Positions 11,111 to 64,000 of a stretch of DNA of 64,000 nucleotides are shown here, piece after piece. This stretch comes from Roseovarius sp. A-2. Its GTDB lineage: Bacteria; Pseudomonadota; Alphaproteobacteria; Rhodobacterales; Rhodobacteraceae. How positions within the stretch are numbered: the first letter of the stretch is position 1; the number at the start of each line of letters is the position of its first letter. The stretch spans positions 248,001-312,000 of the forward strand of contig NZ_BDIY01000003.1 in assembly GCF_002072155.1 (NCBI RefSeq), read 5' to 3'. The notes under the pieces were generated by a model that saw nothing but the letters and a program-made list of their open reading frames with translations, searched no databases and had not been told where the DNA came from. The position numbers and the translations under genes are program-made.

Positions 11111-12808
11111 ATGATCTCGCGTCGCGATTTTCTTCAAACGAGCATGGCGGCTTCGGCCATCCTTGGGGCATCGTCCTTCGGCAACTGGGCGAAACTGGCC
11201 GCACAACAGGCGCTGACGCAGGATCAGCTCTTGCAGTTCGACACGTTCGGCAATGTGAGCCTGATCCACATCACCGACATTCACGCGCAACTCAAGCCGA
11301 TCTATTTCCGCGAACCGTCGATCAATATCGGCGTGGGTGACAACAAGGGCGCGGTGCCGCATGTCACCGGGGCCGATTTCCGCAAGCTTTACGGCATCGA
11401 CGATCGCAGCCCCTCGCATTACGCGCTGTCGTCGGGCGATTTCAGCGCGCTGGCGCAGGCCTATGGCAAGGTTGGCGGGCTTGACCGCGTGGCGACCGTG
11501 ATCAATGCGATCCGCGCCGACCGCCCCGATGCGATCCTGCTCGATGGTGGCGACACGTGGCATGGCTCTTACACATGTTATCACACTGAAGGGCAGGACA
11601 TGGTCAACGTGATGAACGCGTTGAAACCGGACGCGATGACCTTTCATTGGGAGTTCACGCTCGGCTCTGACCGGGTGCATGAGATTGTCGAGGGCTTGCC
11701 CTTTGCAGCCCTGGGCCAGAACATTTTTGACGCCGAATGGGACGAGCCCGCAGAGCTGTTCCCGCCCTACAAGTTCTTTGAACGCGGCGGTGCCAAGATC
11801 GCCGTGATCGGTCAGGCCTTCCCCTATATGCCGATTGCCAATCCCGGCTGGATGTTCCCCGAATACAGCTTTGGCATCCGCGACGAGAACATGCAGGCGA
11901 TGGTGGACGAGGTGCGCGGGCAGGGGGCCGAACTGGTGGTGGTGCTCAGTCATAACGGCTTTGACGTGGACAAGAAGATGGCGGGCATTGTCAGCGGCAT
12001 TGACGTGATCCTGTCGGGCCACACCCATGACGCCCTGCCCGAGCCGGTGCTGGTGGGCGAGACGATCATCGTGGCCTCTGGCTCAAACGGCAAGTTCGTC
12101 AGTCGCGTTGATCTGGATGTGCGTGACGGGCGGATGATGGGCTTTCGCCACAAGCTGATCCCGATCTTCTCGGACGTGATCGAACCAGACAAGGAGGTGG
12201 CCGCGCTCATTGATGAGCAACGTGCGCCGTTCAAATCCGAGCTGGAGGAGGTGATCGGCCAGACCGAGAGCCTGCTTTACCGGCGCGGCAATTTCAACGG
12301 CTCGTGGGATGACCTGATCTGCGAGGCGCTGATCGAGGAGCGCGAGGCCGATATCGCGATGTCGCCCGGCGTGCGGTGGGGCCCGTCCCTCATCCCCGGG
12401 CAGGACATCACCCGCGAGGATATCTTCAACGTCACCTCGATGACCTATGGCAAGGCGTACCGATCTGAGATGACCGGCGAGTTCATCAAGGTGATCCTGG
12501 AAGACGTGGCCGACAACATCTTCAACCCCGATCCTTATTACCAGCAGGGCGGCGACATGGTGCGGATCGGCGGCATGGGCTACCGCATCGACATCAACCA
12601 GCCGCAGGGCAGCCGGATCAGCGACATGACGCTGCTGAGCACCGGCGAGGTGATTGATCCGTCGAAGAATTACGTGGTCGCCGGTTGGGCCAGCGTGAAC
12701 GAGGGCACCGAAGGCCCGCAGATCTGGGACGTGGTCGAGAACCATATCGCCAGGCAGGGCACCGTGCGTGTCGCACCCAATGACAGCGTCAAGGTGATTG
12801 GCGCATGA
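11111..12808 (+). CDS. soxB: Thiosulfohydrolase SoxB
   Basis: Dimanganese hydrolase of 565 residues that removes the terminal sulfonate of SoxY-bound thiosulfate as sulfate. A twin-arginine leader (MISRRDFLQ) directs it to the periplasm. Metallophosphoesterase motifs are present in order: ITDIHAQ, GGDTWHG, SHNGFDVD and SGHTHD. The start at 11111 has a GGAAAGG site and gives the family N-terminus. The frame is open much further upstream, but that part is antisense-type filler over soxA. Its stop overlaps an ATG at 12805, 30 bases before the soxC start used here. Confidence 0.96.
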   Translation: MISRRDFLQTSMAASAILGASSFGNWAKLAAQQALTQDQLLQFDTFGNVSLIHITDIHAQLKPIYFREPSINIGVGDNKGAVPHVTGADFRKLYGIDDRSPSHYALSSGDFSALAQAYGKVGGLDRVATVINAIRADRPDAILLDGGDTWHGSYTCYHTEGQDMVNVMNALKPDAMTFHWEFTLGSDRVHEIVEGLPFAALGQNIFDAEWDEPAELFPPYKFFERGGAKIAVIGQAFPYMPIANPGWMFPEYSFGIRDENMQAMVDEVRGQGAELVVVLSHNGFDVDKKMAGIVSGIDVILSGHTHDALPEPVLVGETIIVASGSNGKFVSRVDLDVRDGRMMGFRHKLIPIFSDVIEPDKEVAALIDEQRAPFKSELEEVIGQTESLLYRRGNFNGSWDDLICEALIEEREADIAMSPGVRWGPSLIPGQDITREDIFNVTSMTYGKAYRSEMTGEFIKVILEDVADNIFNPDPYYQQGGDMVRIGGMGYRIDINQPQGSRISDMTLLSTGEVIDPSKNYVVAGWASVNEGTEGPQIWDVVENHIARQGTVRVAPNDSVKVIGA

Positions 12809-22796: not shown

Positions 22797-23963
22797 TCAA
22801 CGCCGCGCCCCCTGCACCCGGCGAATGGCGATCAGGGTCATGACCGGGCCGATCAGTTCGAACACCACCGTGGAGCCGATGGTGAGGGTGAGGATCATTT
22901 CGCCATGCTGTGGAAACTCACGCGCCGCGATCAGCGCCATGCCCACGGCGACCCCCGCCTGCGGCAGGAGTGCTGCCCCACACCAATTGCGGTCCAATGC
23001 CGAAACCCCTGAAAGCCGTCCACCGATCCATCCGCCTGCGATGCGCGCGGTGCTTCGCAGCAGGATGAAAAGCCCACCAATGAGGCCAATCCCGGCCAAC
23101 AGCGACAGGTCGAGCCGTGCGCCTGCCAGCAGGAAGAAGAGCACCATGAATGGCCATTGCAGGTGTTCGATCTCGTGAAAGGCGCGCTCGTGATGACGGG
23201 CGAGGTTGGCGATCAGCATGCCCGTCACCATGGCCGTGATCAGGAACGAGACGTCGAGCCAGATCGCCAGACCGGCGGTGAGACAGACCAGGCCGATCGC
23301 CTCGGTCTCCAGTGGTTCGCCCTGGCTGAGCCGCCCGGTGAGATAAGCGGCGGGCCAGCCGATGAGGCCGCCAAGCGCCACCGCGCCGCCGATCTCCCAC
23401 AACGCGCCGGTGAGCAGCCCCGTGCCCGCGCCCCCCGAGAGCATATGCGCGCCGACGGCGGCCAGTGAAAAGGCAAGCAGCCCCCAGGCGTCGTCGATGG
23501 CCACGATCCCGAGGATGAGATCGACAAACGGCCCCTCGGCCCCCGCCTGCCGGATCGCGTCCTGTGTCGCGGCGGGCGCGGTTGCCGTGGCAATCGCCCC
23601 CAAAAGCAGCGCCACCGGGGCAGGCAGACCGGCGAGCCAAAGCCCGAGGCTGACCACCGCCATGGTGATCAGAACGATGCAGACCGAGATCAGCAGGATC
23701 GCCCGCCCGTGCTGTGCCAGCCGGTCGAGGGTCAGGGAACTGCCCAGAAGAAACGCCACCATGGTGAGCGCCATGACCGACAGAAAATCGTAGAGCGAGC
23801 GCATTTCCGGCGGGATGAGGTCAAGGCCAGAGCCACCAACCGCGATCCCGCAGGCCAACAGCAGTGTGACCCGAGGCAGGCGGGTGCGCCGCCCGACCGT
23901 GTCGGCGACGAGCCCCGCCAGAAAAAGCGCGCCAAGCGTGATCAGAAGCGGTGCCAACTCCAC
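22797..23963 (-). CDS. CPA2-type cation/proton antiporter (Kef-like membrane domain)
   Basis: Membrane protein of 388 residues, about 12 hydrophobic segments, Na+/H+ exchanger (CPA2) family. The conserved core with paired acidic residues is seen in VAIDDAWGLLAF. It lacks the C-terminal TrkA-N/RCK domain of full KefB/KefC, so it is the membrane module alone. The ion (K+ or Na+) cannot be told. Begins 3 bases after the GntR gene stop, so both are one transcript, and converges with accA. Confidence 0.85.
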   Translation of the reverse strand: MELAPLLITLGALFLAGLVADTVGRRTRLPRVTLLLACGIAVGGSGLDLIPPEMRSLYDFLSVMALTMVAFLLGSSLTLDRLAQHGRAILLISVCIVLITMAVVSLGLWLAGLPAPVALLLGAIATATAPAATQDAIRQAGAEGPFVDLILGIVAIDDAWGLLAFSLAAVGAHMLSGGAGTGLLTGALWEIGGAVALGGLIGWPAAYLTGRLSQGEPLETEAIGLVCLTAGLAIWLDVSFLITAMVTGMLIANLARHHERAFHEIEHLQWPFMVLFFLLAGARLDLSLLAGIGLIGGLFILLRSTARIAGGWIGGRLSGVSALDRNWCGAALLPQAGVAVGMALIAAREFPQHGEMILTLTIGSTVVFELIGPVMTLIAIRRVQGARR

Positions 23964-23966
23964 CGC

Positions 23967-24614
23967 TCAGCCCACCAGCATGCGCAGGCCCTGCGTCACG
24001 TCCGAGCGTACCGCGAGGCGCAGGCTCGGTTCGTCCCCCGCCTTGAGCGCGGCGATCATCAGACGGTGACAATGCGGTGGATCCTTGCGCCGCAGCCGCC
24101 CGTAGAGTGCGCGCATGGTTGGGCCAAGCTGGAGCCAGACGGTTTCGGCCATGGCCAGCATCGCCGGGGCCTGCGCCCGCAGATAGAGCGTGCGGTGAAA
24201 TTCGAGGTTGCGGCGGATATAGGCGACGGCATCCTGACGGGCGATATCCTCGGTGATCCGGGCGTTGATGGTCTGAAGCCGGTCGATCAGCGCGATATGC
24301 GCGCGTGGCAACGCGCGGCTCGCCAGTTCCACCTCCAGCAGCGAGCGCAGGGCGGCCAGTTCCTCGATCCGTTCATTGCTGAGTTCCGGGGTCGAAACGC
24401 GGCCCGAGTTCGACATGGTGAGCGCGCCTTCGGCGGAGAGACGGCGCAGCGCCTCGCGCGCGGGGGTCATCGAGACCTCGAATTCGGCGGCGATGCCGCG
24501 TAGGGTCAGCGCCTGGCCTGGGCCGATCTCGCCATGCATGACGCGCGAGCGCAAGCCGCGATAGACGCGGTCATGGGCCGCCGGGGCCGGATCGGGGCGG
24601 GGCGAAATGAGCAT
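23967..24614 (-). CDS. GntR-family (FadR/FCD subfamily) transcription regulator
   Basis: Protein of 215 residues. Winged helix at about 15-75 with the recognition segment MTPAREALRRLSAEGAL, then an all-helical FCD ligand domain with likely metal ligands in NLEFHRTLY and HCHRLMIAALKAGD. FCD regulators usually sense carboxylates. The perfect decamer TGTGATCACA lies 8 bases upstream of the ATG, and the same decamer occurs twice before sucC. This suggests autoregulation and control of the TCA operon. A GntR-type TCA regulator, AkgR, is described in Rhodobacter sphaeroides; orthology is not verified here. No Shine-Dalgarno precedes the ATG, so the start or a short leader needs checking. Confidence 0.85.
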   Translation of the reverse strand: MLISPRPDPAPAAHDRVYRGLRSRVMHGEIGPGQALTLRGIAAEFEVSMTPAREALRRLSAEGALTMSNSGRVSTPELSNERIEELAALRSLLEVELASRALPRAHIALIDRLQTINARITEDIARQDAVAYIRRNLEFHRTLYLRAQAPAMLAMAETVWLQLGPTMRALYGRLRRKDPPHCHRLMIAALKAGDEPSLRLAVRSDVTQGLRMLVG

Positions 24615-24621
24615 GCGTCTA

Positions 24622-24631
24622 TGTGATCACA
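24622..24631. promoter_or_regulatory. Candidate operator TGTGATCACA before the GntR gene
   Basis: Perfect 10-base palindrome in the 30-base gap between the metalloprotein gene (stop 24645) and the GntR gene (ATG 24614). Identical decamers are at 63507-63516 and 63528-63537. FadR-type GntR proteins commonly bind short palindromes of this kind and repress themselves. Confidence 0.65.
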
Positions 24632-24644
24632 AAATGCGCGCCGG

Positions 24645-25337
24645 TCAATCGCTGAAACGATAGCGGTGCAGCGCGGCCCCCTCGCGGCGCAGCCATTTGC
24701 GCGGGGCCTCGTAGTCGGGCGAGAGCCGCGCCACCACCGCCCAGAACGCTGGGGAATGGTTCATCTCGGCGAGATGTGCCACCTCATGCGCGGCGACATA
24801 ATCCAGCACCTCGGGCGGGGCCATGATCAGCCTCCAGGAATAGCTGAGCGCGCCGCGAGACGAGCATGACCCCCACCGCGAGCGGGTGTCCCGCAGGGTG
24901 ATGCGGGAATAGCCCTGACCGAGCCGTGCCGCATAGCTATCCGACGCGGCTGCAAGTCGGTCGCGCGCACGCGCCTTGAGCCAACCTTCGAGCCGGGCGG
25001 GCAGCTGCGCGTCAGGCCCGGGCACCTCGATTGCATCGGCGGTCAGGCGCACGCCCCGTCCCGCCCCAGACCCGATTCGCAAAAGCCGCCCCTCGACCGG
25101 CACCTCGATCCCCGGTCCCACGCGCAGGCAGTCCGGTCGCTCGGCCAGCTGCGTGCGCAGCCAGTCACCTTTGGAGGCCGCGAATTTCAGTGCCTCGGCC
25201 TCGCTCACCCCGCGCGGGACAGTCAGCGTCACGCGCCCGTCAAGCCCCGAGACCCGCAGCGAAATTCGCCGCGCGCGAGCGCTGTGCCGCAGGCTGACCG
25301 CGACAGGGGGGTTGCCTGACAGGAGATGTTGGCCCAT
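24645..25337 (-). CDS. YgjP/DUF45-type zinc metalloprotein (M48-like)
   Basis: Protein of 230 residues. The zinc motif is HEVAHLAEMNHS (about residues 180-190), the HExxH signature with the downstream N-H-S typical of YgjP-like metallopeptidases. RWGSCSSRGALSYSWRLIMAP just before it is also diagnostic of the family. No signal peptide, so cytoplasmic. Its physiological substrate is unknown. It reads into the GntR and antiporter genes on the same strand, though a candidate operator lies between. Confidence 0.87.
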   Translation of the reverse strand: MGQHLLSGNPPVAVSLRHSARARRISLRVSGLDGRVTLTVPRGVSEAEALKFAASKGDWLRTQLAERPDCLRVGPGIEVPVEGRLLRIGSGAGRGVRLTADAIEVPGPDAQLPARLEGWLKARARDRLAAASDSYAARLGQGYSRITLRDTRSRWGSCSSRGALSYSWRLIMAPPEVLDYVAAHEVAHLAEMNHSPAFWAVVARLSPDYEAPRKWLRREGAALHRYRFSD

Positions 25338-25860: not shown

Positions 25861-25936
<76 letters not shown>

Positions 25937-26017
25937 TCCACCACTAGACCCATTGAAATCAGTAAGTTGGTGTTCTTTTGTGGTAACTATCGGGAACTGT
26001 TACGCTGAGGTGTTACA

Positions 26018-26131
26018 GTGAGGCGTCTCGAAAACATGCCCGGACACACCCGTTTGTCCCGCCGTGGCGCAGTCTACTATCACCGCGCCGCCATCCCCAA
26101 AGACATCGCTGACATCTACTCCAACCCGCGT
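26018..26131 (+). pseudogene. Truncated tyrosine-integrase N-terminus at tRNA-Ala
   Basis: From GTG 26018 or ATG 26036, the codons up to about 26131 read RLSRRGAVYYHRAAIPKDIA and a little more. This is the N-terminal (DUF6538-type) segment of site-specific recombinases that insert into tRNA genes. Similarity stops near 26131, where the sequence becomes the antisense of exbD. The catalytic domain is absent, so this is a scar of a lost or rearranged integrative element. GTAAC/GTTAC half-sites at 25983-26002 may be old arm sites. Confidence 0.8.
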
Positions 26132-26505
26132 TGCGTCACGATCACCACGCTGGAGGCCCCTGCGGCGCGCAACTCTCGCGCCAGATCGACCAAGGTTGTC
26201 GCGGGCAACGCCCTGTCGGGCACGATGCGTACCTCGTCGGGCGCGTCTTCGGGACGGGTGGCATAGAAAGCCTGCGCCGAGGCGACAGCCTCGCCCCGGT
26301 ATGTCAGCCTGCCGTCCGGATGCGCGACAAGCGTATCGGGTGGTGCGCGACCGTCGAGATCGGAGGTACGCACGAGGCTCAGATCCCGGTCCATCGGCGG
26401 TGCGATGGTGCTGGCGACCATGAAAAAGACGAGCATCAGGAAGACAACATTGATCAGGGCGATCGTCGGCTCGATTCGCGCGCTATGTCTCTGCTTGCGC
26501 ATCAC
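26116..26505 (-). CDS. exbD: ExbD/TolR-type biopolymer transport protein (second copy)
   Basis: Protein of 129 residues with a short cytoplasmic N-terminus, one membrane segment (ALINVVFLMLVFFMVAST) and a periplasmic domain. The conserved aspartate of the ExbD membrane helix (normally L-x-D-V) reads INVVF here, so an essential proton-path residue appears to be replaced by Asn. This contrasts with the neighbouring copy, which has LIDVIF. The last five or so codons and the stop come from the antisense of the integrase remnant. It may be a structural partner or a decaying copy. Overlaps its neighbour by four bases. Confidence 0.85.
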   Translation of the reverse strand: MMRKQRHSARIEPTIALINVVFLMLVFFMVASTIAPPMDRDLSLVRTSDLDGRAPPDTLVAHPDGRLTYRGEAVASAQAFYATRPEDAPDEVRIVPDRALPATTLVDLARELRAAGASSVVIVTQRGLE

Positions 26506-57772: not shown

Positions 57773-60733
57773 TTATTTCCCTTCGATGGTCAGCGCGGCA
57801 TCCACCAGCGCCTCTTGTTGGTCTTTGTGCTGCTTAGCCAGGCCCGTGGCGGGCGAGGCGGCGGCGGCGCGGCCGGCATATTGCGGCCGCTTGTGCTTGG
57901 CCTTGATACGCGTGAGCACCCATTCGATATTCGGCTCGATGAAGGACCACGCGCCCTGGTTCTTGGGCTCTTCCTGACACCATACCATTTCGGCCTGCTT
58001 GAAGCGCTCCAGCTCCTTGACCATGGACATGGCGGGGAACGGGTAGAACTGTTCGATCCGCATCAGGTAGACATCGGTGATGCCGCGCTTGTCGCGTTCC
58101 TCGAGCAGGTCGTAATAGACCTTGCCGGAGCACATCACGACGCGCTTGATCTGCTTGTCGGGGGCAAGCTCGGTGTCGGAATTGCCATATTGCGCATCGT
58201 CCCACAGTACCCGGTGGAAGGAGGAGCCGGTGGTAAATTCCTCGGTCTTCGATACCGCCATCTTGTGCCGCAAGAGCGATTTCGGCGTCATCAGGATGAG
58301 TGGCTTGCGGAAGGTGCGGTGCAGCTGGCGGCGCAGGATGTGGAAATAGTTGGCGGGCGTGGTGCAATTGGCCACGATCCAGTTGTCGCCGCCGCACATC
58401 GTGAGGAACCGTTCCAGACGCGCGGAGGAGTGTTCCGGGCCCTGCCCCTCGTAGCCATGCGGCAGAAGGCAGACGAGGCCGGACATGCGCAGCCATTTCG
58501 ACTCACCAGAGGAGATGAACTGATCAAACATGATCTGCGCGCCGTTGGCGAAATCGCCGAACTGCGCCTCCCACAGGGTGAGGGCGTTGGGCTCTGCGAG
58601 GCTGAAGCCATACTCAAAGCCCAGCACGGCGTATTCCGAGAGCATCGAGTCGATGGCCTCGTATTGCGCCTGCCCCTCGCGGATATGGTTGAGCGGGTAG
58701 TAGCGCCCCTCGTCATCCTGATTGATCAGGGCGGAATGGCGTTGGCTGAAGGTGCCGCGCGTGCTGTCCTGCCCCGAGAGACGCACCGGGTAGCCTTCGG
58801 TGAGCAGCGAGCCGAAGGCAATGGCCTCGGCGGTGGCCCAGTCGAAGCCGGTCCCGGATTTGAACATCTCGGCCTTGGTGTCGAGCAGGCGCGAGACGGT
58901 CTTGTGCAGGGTGAAGTTTTCGGGGGCGGTGGTCAGCGCCCGGCCAATGTCATCGAAGGTTTCGGGTTTGATCGCGGTTTCGCCGCGCTGGTAATCCTCG
59001 TCCTTGCGATCGAGATGGGACCATTTGCCATCCAGCCAGTCGGCCTTGTTGGGGCGGTAGTCCTTGCCTGCCTCGAACTCGTCGGCGAGATGCGACTGGA
59101 ACGCCGCCTTCATGTCCTCGATCTCGCCCTCGGGGATGAGACCGTCCTTGACCAGCCGTTCGGTATAGAGGGCGAGGGTGGTCTTCTGCTGCTTGATCTT
59201 CTTGTACATCAGGGGGTTGGTGAACATCGGCTCGTCCCCCTCGTTATGGCCGAAGCGGCGGTAGCAGATGATGTCGATCACCACGTCCTTGTGGAACTTC
59301 TGGCGGAACTCGGTGGCGACCTTGGCGGCATGCACCACGGCCTCGGGGTCGTCGCCGTTGACGTGGAAAATGGGCGCCTCGACCATCAGCGCGATGTCGG
59401 TCGGATAGGGTGAGGAGCGGCTGAAATGCGGCGCGGTGGTAAACCCGATCTGGTTGTTGACCACGATATGCATGGTGCCGCCGGTCTTGTGCCCCTTGAG
59501 GCCCGAGAGGCCAAAGCCCTCGGCCACCACGCCCTGCCCGGCAAAGGCCGCGTCGCCATGCAGAAGGATGCCCATGACCTTCATGCGCTCGGTATCGCCC
59601 AACTGATCCTGCTTGGCGCGGACCTTGCCCAGAACGACGGGGTTCACGGCCTCGAGGTGGCTGGGGTTCGCGGTGAGCGACAGGTGCACCTTGTTGCCGT
59701 CAAACTCGCGGTCGTGGCTGGCGCCGAGGTGGTATTTCACGTCGCCAGAGCCGTCGACCTCGTCGGGCTTGAAGCTGCCGCCCTGAAACTCGTTGAAAAT
59801 GGCGCGGTAGGGCTTGCCCATCACGTTGGCCAGCACCGACAGGCGGCCCCGGTGGGGCATGCCGATCACGATCTCCTCGATCCCGAGATTGCCGCCGCGC
59901 TTGATGATCTGCTCCATCGCCGGAATGAGGCTTTCGCCGCCATCCAGGCCAAAGCGCTTGGTGCCCATGTATTTCACATGCAGGTATTTCTCGAAACCCT
60001 CGGCCTCGACCAGCTTGTTCAGGATCGCCTTGCGCCCGTTGCGGGTAAAGCTGATTTCCTTGTCATAACCCTCGATCCGCTCCTTGAGCCACGACGATTG
60101 CTCGGGGTCGGAGATATGCATGTATTGCAGCGCGAAAGTGCCGCAATAGGTACGTTTGACGATGGCGAGGATCTCGCGCAGGCTCGCGACCTGAAGACCC
60201 AGCACATTGTCGATGAAAATGGGCCGGTCCATGTCGGACTCGGTGAAGCCATAGGATTTCGGGTCAAGCTCGGGGCGGTGGCCGTGATCGCGCAGGCCGA
60301 GCGGGTCAAGCTCTGCGATCAGGTGGCCCCGGATGCGGTAGGCGCGAATGAGCATCAGCGCGCGCACGGAATCGAGCACGGCACGCTGGATCGCCTCGTC
60401 GGTGACCTCGACGCCCTTCTCAGATGCCTTGGCGGCGATCTTCTTGCCTGCGTCCTTGAGCTCCGCCTCGGCGGGCCATTCGCCGGTCAGCGCGGCAGTG
60501 AGGTCATCCGAGGGCATCGGCGGCCAGTCGGCGCGCGCCCAGGAGGGGCCGGCGGCCTCGGCCTTCACGTTGTCATCGCCATCGCCAAGCGCGTCGAAAA
60601 AGCCGCGCCATGCGTCGTCCACGGCATTCGGATCGCTGGCATAGCGGGCGTAAAGCTGCTCGAGATACTCGGCATTGTGCCCCTGCATGAAGGAGGAGGC
60701 ATGGAACTGGTCGTTGGGGGATTGGTCGGTCAT
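57773..60733 (-). CDS. sucA: 2-oxoglutarate dehydrogenase E1
   Basis: Thiamine-diphosphate enzyme of 986 residues. The N-terminal SFMQGHNAEYLEQLYARY segment binds the complex; IGMPHRGRL, GDAAFAGQGVVAE and HNEGDEP mark the ThDP-binding core; and RGTFSQRHSAL is the typical E1o segment. It decarboxylates 2-oxoglutarate and passes the succinyl group to the E2 lipoyl arm. Its ATG overlaps the stop of the DUF805 gene by four bases. Confidence 0.97.
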   Translation of the reverse strand: MTDQSPNDQFHASSFMQGHNAEYLEQLYARYASDPNAVDDAWRGFFDALGDGDDNVKAEAAGPSWARADWPPMPSDDLTAALTGEWPAEAELKDAGKKIAAKASEKGVEVTDEAIQRAVLDSVRALMLIRAYRIRGHLIAELDPLGLRDHGHRPELDPKSYGFTESDMDRPIFIDNVLGLQVASLREILAIVKRTYCGTFALQYMHISDPEQSSWLKERIEGYDKEISFTRNGRKAILNKLVEAEGFEKYLHVKYMGTKRFGLDGGESLIPAMEQIIKRGGNLGIEEIVIGMPHRGRLSVLANVMGKPYRAIFNEFQGGSFKPDEVDGSGDVKYHLGASHDREFDGNKVHLSLTANPSHLEAVNPVVLGKVRAKQDQLGDTERMKVMGILLHGDAAFAGQGVVAEGFGLSGLKGHKTGGTMHIVVNNQIGFTTAPHFSRSSPYPTDIALMVEAPIFHVNGDDPEAVVHAAKVATEFRQKFHKDVVIDIICYRRFGHNEGDEPMFTNPLMYKKIKQQKTTLALYTERLVKDGLIPEGEIEDMKAAFQSHLADEFEAGKDYRPNKADWLDGKWSHLDRKDEDYQRGETAIKPETFDDIGRALTTAPENFTLHKTVSRLLDTKAEMFKSGTGFDWATAEAIAFGSLLTEGYPVRLSGQDSTRGTFSQRHSALINQDDEGRYYPLNHIREGQAQYEAIDSMLSEYAVLGFEYGFSLAEPNALTLWEAQFGDFANGAQIMFDQFISSGESKWLRMSGLVCLLPHGYEGQGPEHSSARLERFLTMCGGDNWIVANCTTPANYFHILRRQLHRTFRKPLILMTPKSLLRHKMAVSKTEEFTTGSSFHRVLWDDAQYGNSDTELAPDKQIKRVVMCSGKVYYDLLEERDKRGITDVYLMRIEQFYPFPAMSMVKELERFKQAEMVWCQEEPKNQGAWSFIEPNIEWVLTRIKAKHKRPQYAGRAAAASPATGLAKQHKDQQEALVDAALTIEGK

Positions 60734-61267: not shown

Positions 61268-62149
61268 TCAGCCGATTGCCTTGAGCACGGCCTCGCCAAG
61301 GCCCGCGGGGCTGTCGGCGACGGTGATGCCGGCGGATTTCATTGCCTCGATCTTGTCGTCGGCGCCGCCCTTGCCGCCTGCCACGATGGCGCCCGCGTGG
61401 CCCATGCGGCGGCCCGGGGGGGCGGTGCGTCCGGCGATGAAGCCTGCCGTGGGCTTCCAGCGGCCGCGCTTTTTCTCGTCGGCGAGGAACTGTGCGGCGT
61501 CTTCTTCCGCCGAGCCGCCGATCTCGCCGATCATGATGATGCTCTCGGTTTCGTCATCGGCGAGGAACCATTCCAGCACGTCGATATGCTCGGTGCCCTT
61601 GATCGGGTCGCCGCCGATGCCGACGCAGGTCGATTGGCCCAGGCCCACATCCGAGGTCTGTTTCACCGCCTCGTAGGTCAGCGTGCCCGAGCGCGAGACG
61701 ACGCCGCAGGAGCCGCGCTTGTGGATATGGCCGGGCATGATGCCGATCTTGCAGGCATCCGGCGTGATGATGCCGGGGCAGTTCGGGCCGATCAGCTTGG
61801 AGGTGGAGCCCTCGAGCGCACGCTTGACGCGCATCATGTCAAGCACCGGGATGCCTTCGGTGATGCAGATGATGAGCTCCATCCCGGCGTCGATCGCCTC
61901 GAGGATGCTGTCGGCGGCGAAGGGCGGCGGCACATAGATGACGCTCGCGTTGGCCTCGGTCACATGTTTCGCCTCATGCACCGAGTTGAAGACCGGCAGG
62001 TCGAGATGTGTGGTGCCGCCCTTGCCCGGCGTCACGCCGCCGACCATCTTGGTGCCATAGGCGATGGCCTGTTCAGAGTGGAATGTGCCCTGCGAGCCGG
62101 TGAGGCCCTGACAGATCACTTTTGTATTTTCGTCTACGAGGACTGCCAT
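61268..62149 (-). CDS. sucD: Succinate-CoA ligase subunit alpha
   Basis: Protein of 293 residues. CoA-binding Rossmann domain ([20 protein letters not shown]) and ligase domain with the phosphohistidine in MGHAGAI. With SucC it makes succinate and ATP/GTP from succinyl-CoA. ATG 62149 gives [11 protein letters not shown], preceded by AAGGAG; the frame extends further upstream without support. Fifty-six bases after sucC, with a repeat in between. Confidence 0.97.
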
Positions 62150-62182
62150 CTTGGCGTTCTCCTTACTGAATTCGTGGGGAAG

Positions 62183-62204
62183 GTGGGTTGGCACCCACCC
62201 TACG
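62183..62204. repeat. Half copy of the GTGGGTTGGCACCCACCC repeat
   Basis: Twenty-two bases identical to 56175-56196, lying between the sucC stop and the sucD start. It lacks the right arm, so it has only a small hairpin of its own (GTGGGT/ACCCAC). Confidence 0.75.
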
Positions 62205-62205
62205 A

Positions 62206-63399
62206 TTAGCCCTTGACCGCCTTGACGATCTTCTCGGCCCCGTCCTTGAGGTCGTCGGCGGCGATCACGTCGAGGCCGGAGGTGTTGATGATCTCCTTGC
62301 CCTTCTCGACGTTGGTGCCTTCCAGACGGACCACCAGCGGCACCTTGAGGCCGACCTCCTTGACCGCGGCCACCACGCCCTCGGCGATCACATCGCAGCG
62401 CATGATGCCGCCGAAGATGTTGACCAGGATGCCTTTGACCTGCGGGTCGGAGGTGATGATCTTGAACGCCTCGGTGACCTTTTCCTTGGTCGCGCCACCG
62501 CCCACATCGAGGAAGTTGGCAGGCTCGGCGCCGTAAAGCTTGATGATGTCCATGGTCGCCATCGCCAGACCCGCGCCATTGACCATGCAGCCGATTTCGC
62601 CATCCAGCGCGATATAGTTGAGGTCGTATTTCGACGCCTCGAGCTCCTTGGGGTCTTCTTCGGTGGTGTCGCGCAGCTCGGCGATATCCGAGTGGCGATA
62701 GATCGCGTTGCCGTCAAAGCTCACCTTGGCATCAAGCACCTTGAGATCGCCCTTGTCGGTCACGATCAGCGGGTTGATTTCCAGCATCTCCATGTCTTTT
62801 TCGACAAAGGCCTTGTAAAGCGTGCCCATCAGGGCGACGCATTGCTTGACCTGCGCGCCGCTCAGGCCAAGGTTAAAGGCGATGCGACGGCCGTGAAACG
62901 CCTGATAGCCGGTGGCGGGGTCGACGCTGAAGCTGAGGATCTTTTCCGGCGTCGCCTCAGCGACATCCTCGATATCCATGCCGCCCTCGGTGGAGGCGAC
63001 GAAGCTGACGCGGGAGGTGACCCGGTCCACCAGCAACGCGAGATACATCTCGGTCTCAATCCCCGAGCCGTCCTCAATATATATCCGGTTGACCTGCTTG
63101 CCGGCCGCGCCGGTCTGCTTGGTCACCAGTGTGCGGCCCAGCATGCGCTTGGCTTCTTCGGCGGCTTCTTCGACGGATTTGGCAAGGCGTACACCGCCCG
63201 CTTCGCCGGCGCCGGCCTCTTTGAATTTACCCTTGCCGCGCCCGCCCGCGTGGATCTGGGCTTTGACCACCCAAAGCGGGCCGTCAAGGGCGCTGGCGGC
63301 GGTTTTGGCTTCTTCGGCGCGCAGAACCACGCGCCCGTCCGACACCGGGGCGCCGTAAGAGCGAAGCAAAGCCTTCGCCTGATACTCATGGATATTCAT
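62206..63399 (-). CDS. sucC: Succinate-CoA ligase subunit beta
   Basis: Protein of 397 residues with an ATP-grasp N-terminal domain ([14 protein letters not shown]) and a C-terminal ligase domain ([27 protein letters not shown]). First gene of the sucC-sucD-DUF805-sucA-sucB series. ATG 63399 ([12 protein letters not shown]) is the family start. The 223-base upstream region carries two identical palindromic decamers and the mdh terminator. Confidence 0.97.
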
Positions 63400-63504
63400 G
63401 AAACTGTCCCGTTTTGCTGCGATCAGGACAGGTATAGACATAGAATCACGGCAGCCTTAAACGCTTTTTTGCGGTTTAGGGCCAATTCGGGGAAAATTCG
63501 GTGA

Positions 63505-63539
63505 TTTGTGATCACACGGGTAAATCGTGTGATCACAAA
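63505..63539. promoter_or_regulatory. Double operator before sucC: two TGTGATCACA palindromes 21 bp apart
   Basis: TTTGTGATCACACG (63505-63518), GGTAAAT, CGTGTGATCACAAA (63526-63539). Each arm contains TGTGATCACA (63507-63516 and 63528-63537), and the whole is itself a perfect inverted repeat. The repeat distance is two helical turns, so two dimers would bind the same DNA face. The same decamer precedes the GntR gene at 23967-24614. Confidence 0.75.
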
Positions 63540-63567: not shown

Positions 63568-63601
63568 AAAAGAATCGGGGCTGGATCTTGTCCAGCCCCG
63601 A
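63568..63601 (-). terminator. Rho-independent terminator of mdh
   Basis: TCGGGGCTGGA and TCCAGCCCCGA form a perfect 11-bp stem around a 5-base loop. On the minus strand it is followed by TTCTTTT. It starts 21 bases after the mdh stop, so the suc genes need their own promoter. Confidence 0.9.

Positions 63602-63622: not shown

Positions 63623-64000
<378 letters not shown>

Follow-up and report, generated by a model that had tools for sequence, protein, structure and literature searches.

Paired palindromes before suc and sdh and a single palindrome at its own promoter: predicted sites of a probable AkgR ortholog in Roseovarius sp. A-2

We take AkgR of Rhodobacter sphaeroides, reportedly named in a 2015 mBio paper, to be the protein RSP_0981, and CceR of the same organism is presumably RSP_1663. 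In the consulted sections of PMC4344238, the GntR regulator RSP_0981 is predicted to control succinyl-CoA synthetase, succinate dehydrogenase and 2-oxoglutarate dehydrogenase, and thus shares its predicted suc and sdh targets with the regulator described here. The same sections present CceR as a predicted central carbon regulator with sdh among its targets; unlike the regulator described here, it belongs to the LacI family and has the motif GTT N6-8 AAC. In the consulted sections of PMC6365646, AkgR is called an activator and GTGATCAC is given among the AkgR sites. The sections also describe PS417_07240 of Pseudomonas simiae, a GntR-like protein which, like the present regulator, is proposed to bind GTGATCAC before its own gene; it governs a deoxyribonate cluster, a catabolic rather than a TCA function, and is 32% identical to AkgR. 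The control of suc and sdh is therefore already in print as a prediction, and the novelty of the present locus is modest, lying mostly in a conserved site grammar and an own-promoter site. An earlier note on this DNA had presented the precise double site as new. In that regard, the suc and sdh targets and the GTGATCAC site are already published in the consulted sections of PMC4344238 and PMC6365646, and the double-site grammar and the own-promoter site were not met there. The literature search returned no paper pairing TGTGATCACA with a GntR protein, and the consulted sections of PMC5343134 contained nothing on this regulator.

The window, that is, the whole 64-kb stretch of DNA that was analysed, contains a 215-residue regulator in which the GntR winged helix (54 bits) and the FCD domain (58.9 bits) are both recognized by Pfam. 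Its genes and sites are collected in the table below. An exact match search located the decamer TGTGATCACA at three places in the window, one before the regulator gene and two before sucC, with no fourth exact copy within the 64 kb; two further matches, at 11576 and 13797, carry one mismatch each. The two sucC copies stand exactly 21 bp apart, as the earlier note had read them. It had also placed the single decamer 8 bases before the GntR gene: the site is there, and the gap is 7 bases, 8 being the offset to the start codon, which begins at 24614 on the minus strand. From the protein, its sites and their conservation, we conclude that this regulator probably switches on suc and sdh through paired sites and checks itself through the single site.

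Table. Features of the sucC region and of the regulator locus, in window coordinates.
Feature	Position	Strand	Basis or remark
sucA, 2-oxoglutarate dehydrogenase E1	57773..60733	-	986-aa ORF, named by eye
sucD, succinyl-CoA synthetase alpha subunit	61268..62194	-	CoA_binding and Ligase_CoA
sucC, succinyl-CoA synthetase beta subunit	62206..63399	-	ATP-grasp_2 and Ligase_CoA
Candidate sucC -10, TATACC	63431..63436	-	TATA-type element in most genus sucC regions
TGTGATCACA, sucC-proximal copy	63507..63516	.	exact match
TGTGATCACA, sucC-distal copy	63528..63537	.	exact match; 21 bp from the proximal copy (start to start)
Terminator-like hairpin between mdh and the pair	63575..63601	.	scored on both strands; 2 found against a shuffle mean of 0.4
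mdh (malate dehydrogenase), 3' part, cut by the window end	63623..64000	-	named by eye
CPA2-like cation:proton antiporter	22797..23963	-	Na_H_Exchanger; 3 bp after the regulator
GntR/FCD regulator, probable AkgR	23967..24614	-	Pfam GntR and FCD above cut-off
Single TGTGATCACA in the GntR gene's own promoter	24622..24631	.	exact match
Candidate -35 of the GntR gene, TTGACC	24643..24648	-	conserved TTGAC; overlaps the ygjP stop codon
ygjP-like metallopeptidase gene, just upstream of the regulator	24645..25337	-	YgjP-like

The identity of the regulator was approached through its best match, an ortholog of Cereibacter johrii that is 77% identical to it. In C. johrii the genes follow the order ygjP, gntR, sdhBADC, mdh, sucCD, which corresponds to the numbers RSP_0981, 0974-6, 0968 and 0967-6 in the consulted sections of PMC4344238, so that the ortholog stands where RSP_0981 would be expected. 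By this gene order the C. johrii protein is very probably AkgR, and the window protein is a probable ortholog of AkgR/RSP_0981; the kinship that the earlier note had suspected is thereby made probable. The octamer GTGATCAC is present before suc and sdh in both genomes, and C. johrii has pairs before sdhC and sucC just as the genome of the window does. The two differ in that C. johrii lacks the own-promoter palindrome. The window regulator also lies 39 kb from suc, has sdh on another contig and is followed by the CPA2 antiporter.

In the sucC region, the start codon as used by relatives lies at 63399, 107 bp from the nearer palindrome, and the pair-to-sucC distance is usually 107-116 bp in the fetched relatives. 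The pair lies in the mdh-sucC interval, and the terminator-like hairpin separates it from mdh. The mdh frame runs on past the window end, and mdh matches adjoin sucC in many fetched relatives. No tandem repeats were detected in the sucC region by a tandem repeat scan, and a mechanical scan for sigma-70 consensus promoters returned none in either the sucC region or that of the GntR gene; the candidate promoter elements at sucC, sdhC and the GntR gene rest on conservation. The half sites of the palindrome also called for comparison with other regulators. TGTGA and TCACA are the CRP consensus half sites, separated by a 6-bp spacer, and their presence counts for a CRP/FNR-type site of the form TGTGA..TCACA. 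In the TGTGATCACA copies examined, however, the half sites abut without that spacer, and we rejected such a site as very improbable. The CceR motif reported in the consulted sections of PMC4344238 is likewise different.

The earlier note had proposed counting the decamer genome-wide, and had held that copies common at random positions would refute its proposal. In the 4.58-Mb genome (126 contigs) there are 8 copies of TGTGATCACA at five places, and a reversed control word has 0 copies. Three copies precede sdhC, the two nearer ones 20 bp apart; the remaining five comprise the two before sucC, the one before the GntR gene, one before a gene for a Rieske ring-hydroxylase and one inside a frame that resembles an RNA helicase gene. 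Markov models of first or second order, built on the window, give an expectation of 3.1 or 4.7 copies for 4.58 Mb, and the bare count of 8 is therefore weak evidence. The placement is non-random even though the count is near chance: 6 of the 8 copies stand before sdhC, sucC or the GntR gene and include two pairs with a spacing of two helical turns, and this placement together with its conservation is far beyond chance. The sdhCDAB operon would be the other main target besides suc.

Two of these copies have surroundings of their own. The third TGTGATCACA before sdhC lies about 100 bp upstream of the pair (locus L001, 4135-4144). On contig 13, the decamer 23 bp before the likely ATG of the Rieske gene lies inside a perfect 20-bp palindrome, CAATCTGTGATCACAGATTG (1862-1881). 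Another FCD GntR gene is found near it at 312-989, and CAATCTGTGATCACAGATTG is probably the operator of this local regulator.

Conservation of the paired arrangement was followed through the genus, the family and the class. The TGTGATCACA pair was found in 30 of 36 genus genomes versus 1 of 24 other genomes of the class. Among the six that lack it in the genus, five carry the octamer GTGATCAC as an exact pair at 21 bp; in the sixth, G005, the regulator is present, and a search tolerating one mismatch revealed no 21-bp pair. In the family, a search for two copies of GTGATCAC with spacers of 10-16 bp recovered a pair in 266 of 295 genomes, most of them with exactly two pairs, and no match to the reversed control was seen in these 295 genomes. 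A draw from the class (n = 289) gave the pair in all 4 members of the family and in 5 of the 285 remaining genomes, with the reversed control at 6 places, all in one genome (G406). The 74 fetched pair loci represent 73 distinct places, 70 of which lie directly before sucC (49), sdhC (20) or sucA (1). Of the 69 sucC and sdhC pairs, 65 have a spacing of 21 bp and the other 4 one of 20 bp, where 18-24 was allowed. The spacer letters vary between unchanged palindromes. A random decamer with coincidental placement could draw on the genome count, which exceeds the 3.1-4.7 copies expected from the Markov models by a factor of only about two; the pair in 266 of 295 family genomes, the unmatched control and the diverged spacers refute it, and we give this explanation practically no weight.

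A few pairs occur in other settings. In one genome (G101; locus L304, 4294-4322), a 21-bp pair lies about 125 bp before fumC, and fumarase seems to have joined the regulon there. In G103 the two copies are spaced 18 bp apart, and no neighbouring gene was matched. In a genome of another family (G049; locus L303, about 6309), a GTGATCAC pair neighbours a putative TonB receptor gene, and the gene of a distantly related FCD GntR protein is located some 2.4 kb from the pair; perhaps the same operator word is used there by another FCD regulator for other targets. A second genome with the same genus code, G479, also has a GTGATCAC pair.

The regulator is distributed much as the pair is. A match was obtained in 278 of the 295 family genomes (E <= 1e-20) and a strong ortholog in 265 (E <= 1e-70), with identities of 74-86% among the matches listed. 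In the genus, the regulator was found in 38 of 40 genomes (E <= 1e-60); it is absent from G018 and G033, which are 86% and 72% complete and both have pairs. A pair is present in 259 of the 265 family genomes with a strong ortholog, compared with 6 of the 27 without one, the latter comprising genomes with no ortholog, a broken one or distant relatives only (best E > 1e-50). Three intermediate genomes, G092 with the pair and G181 and G339 without it, were left out of this count. Fisher's exact test gives p = 1.4e-21, uncorrected for relatedness. Across a SucC tree of 47 rows, at least 7 changes of the site and 10 of the regulator were counted; only 2 independent pairs of changes fall on well-supported branches, a number too small for a test of shared loss.

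The exceptions on both sides were inspected individually. Among the six genomes with a strong ortholog and no exact pair, two (G099, G349) have the pair with one changed base, three (G206, G214, G225) yielded no true full-length sucC, and one (G260) has no 21-bp pair even with one mismatch. The six family genomes with a pair and no detectable ortholog (G078, G155, G173, G315, G323, G332) include three that are at least 90% complete. A ygjP match is also absent in all six, in a search that had no positive control of its own, although the same ygjP protein was found by tblastn beside most orthologs; its absence fits an assembly gap or a deletion of the regulator locus.

In two further genomes the regulator gene appears broken, and neither has a pair. 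The G168 ortholog is split into three pieces in different frames, its own promoter has lost the site, and sucC is preceded by a single imperfect octamer; the G216 match contains four stops, and its own-promoter site and sucC site are both imperfect. A sequencing error might make an intact gene look broken, but would hardly account for the simultaneous decay of the sites. Furthermore, no TGATCA was found within 300 bp upstream of sucC in the 17 other regulator-less genomes with a true sucC, G080 and G231 being excluded because no true sucC was retrieved from them. Genomes in which the regulator and its sites decay together serve as natural experiments. The claim of the earlier note that the regulator controls itself and the TCA operon is supported by this shared conservation and shared decay, as far as comparative evidence of this kind can indicate.

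These comparisons also bear on whether the sites, functional as they may be, are bound mainly by another FCD GntR protein, the window regulator sharing the motif only by family likeness. The genome of the window has 25 FCD matches, one of which is the contig-13 regulator near a gene with the same decamer in a longer palindrome. A distant FCD regulator likewise stands near the pair in G049, and eight genomes, the six family genomes and G018 and G033, have the pair and no ortholog that was found. Against this, 55 of the 57 regulator loci have a site in the regulator's own promoter, the presence of the regulator tracks the pair, and its broken copies accompany decayed sites. We therefore regard binding mainly by another FCD protein as quite improbable, and retain the AkgR ortholog as the protein predicted to act at these palindromes.

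All 28 genus loci other than that of the window have the octamer GTGATCAC in the promoter of the regulator gene, as do 27 of the 29 loci taken from the family, a set that includes L062 of the same genus. The octamer begins 14-27 bp before the start, as set by alignment. The two exceptions among the family loci are L063, where the octamer lies farther upstream, and L086, which has none. A TTGAC precedes the palindrome in each of the 28 genus loci and in 26 of the 27 family loci that have one. The palindrome lies over the presumed -10 with almost no leader, which fits autorepression.

Turning to the targets, 20 of the 26 sucC regions from the genus share a TATA-type element at 73-76 bp, measured from the centre of the nearer palindrome, and the other 6 have no candidate -10 at the usual place. 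No recognisable -35 box accompanies the element; the usual distance would put its start about 51-52 bp from the palindrome. Of the 20 sdhC regions, 13 have a GTGAC box 62-64 bp from the nearer palindrome, three others have one at 52, 73 or 74 bp, and the remaining 4 have none. The steps between these distances amount to roughly one turn of the helix, which would suit an activator bound to a single face of the DNA, the numbers for this phasing being small and the boxes guessed. In general, the position of the sites fits activation of TCA-cycle genes.

The geometry also bears on the alternative that the regulator acts as a repressor throughout, at sdh and suc as well as at its own promoter. Repression is common among FCD regulators, and the own-promoter site is placed as for a repressor, which lends this possibility some substance. 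At the target operons, however, the pairs do not overlap the candidate promoter elements and stand upstream of them, by about 75 bp at sucC (20 of 26) and 62-64 bp at sdhC (13 of 20), and AkgR is called an activator in the consulted sections of PMC6365646. Uniform repression is accordingly rated as unlikely, somewhat less so than binding by another FCD protein.

We consider it very likely, on these lines of comparison, that the AkgR ortholog binds TGTGATCACA as a dimer, activates at the suc and sdh pairs and represses itself at the single site. A GntR dimer is predicted to bind each palindrome. Before sucCDAB and sdhCDAB, two palindromes 20-21 bp apart, or two helix turns, would let two dimers bind next to each other along the same face of the DNA, ahead of a promoter whose -35 box is poor, and their position suggests that the regulator most likely activates both operons from there. 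At its own gene, the single palindrome follows the -35 element, covers the presumed -10 and precedes the start codon; bound protein would block RNA polymerase there, so that autorepression is the most likely outcome by position. A carboxylate is the putative ligand; a response to alpha-ketoglutarate or a related carboxylate is suggested only by the name and the targets.

The recognition-helix region of the regulator, VSMTP.RE, is invariant across 59 aligned orthologs, which comprise the best-scoring fetched loci and C. johrii. D128, H140, H183 and D205 are also invariant in this alignment, D205 standing where a third histidine is expected, with all of these positions assigned by eye. The metal or ligand site of FCD domains consists of one Asp and three His, and the four residues may form such a site with an Asp replacing the usual third His. 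McbR of Escherichia coli, the targets of which are biofilm and mucoidy genes, is a distant relative whose targets are unrelated to those discussed here. By sequence, it is the closest protein of solved structure to the window regulator (PDB 4p9f; E 1.5e-17, residues 18-210).

A wider reading of the site grammar would extend it to most of the family. Pairs two turns apart at a whole-turn distance from the promoter would stand for cooperative activation, at sdh, suc and once fumC, and a single palindrome over the -10 for autorepression, in a self-limiting loop that seems to have been lost in Cereibacter; we give this reading an even chance. If true, Cereibacter, the lineage in which AkgR was studied, would not be typical. 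The distribution suggests that a described but little-studied regulator may set TCA-cycle expression across most of the sampled genera of the family. The exact sites to mutate are now given, and a self-limiting loop is predicted that the model lineage may lack.

The neighbours of the regulator gene are conserved to different degrees. The conserved neighbour is the ygjP gene, which adjoins the regulator in all 28 loci of the genus and in 26 of the 29 from the family. The antiporter, which the earlier note had linked to the system, is probably cotranscribed with the regulator in this genome; among relatives it adjoins the regulator only here and there (11 of the 28 loci of the genus, 3 of the 29 from the family), and the link did not hold, the antiporter being rejected as a core partner. 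Elsewhere in the window, the region 25861-26180 begins with a tRNA-Ala gene (25861-25936), followed by an apparent integrase start, recognized by eye, which breaks off.
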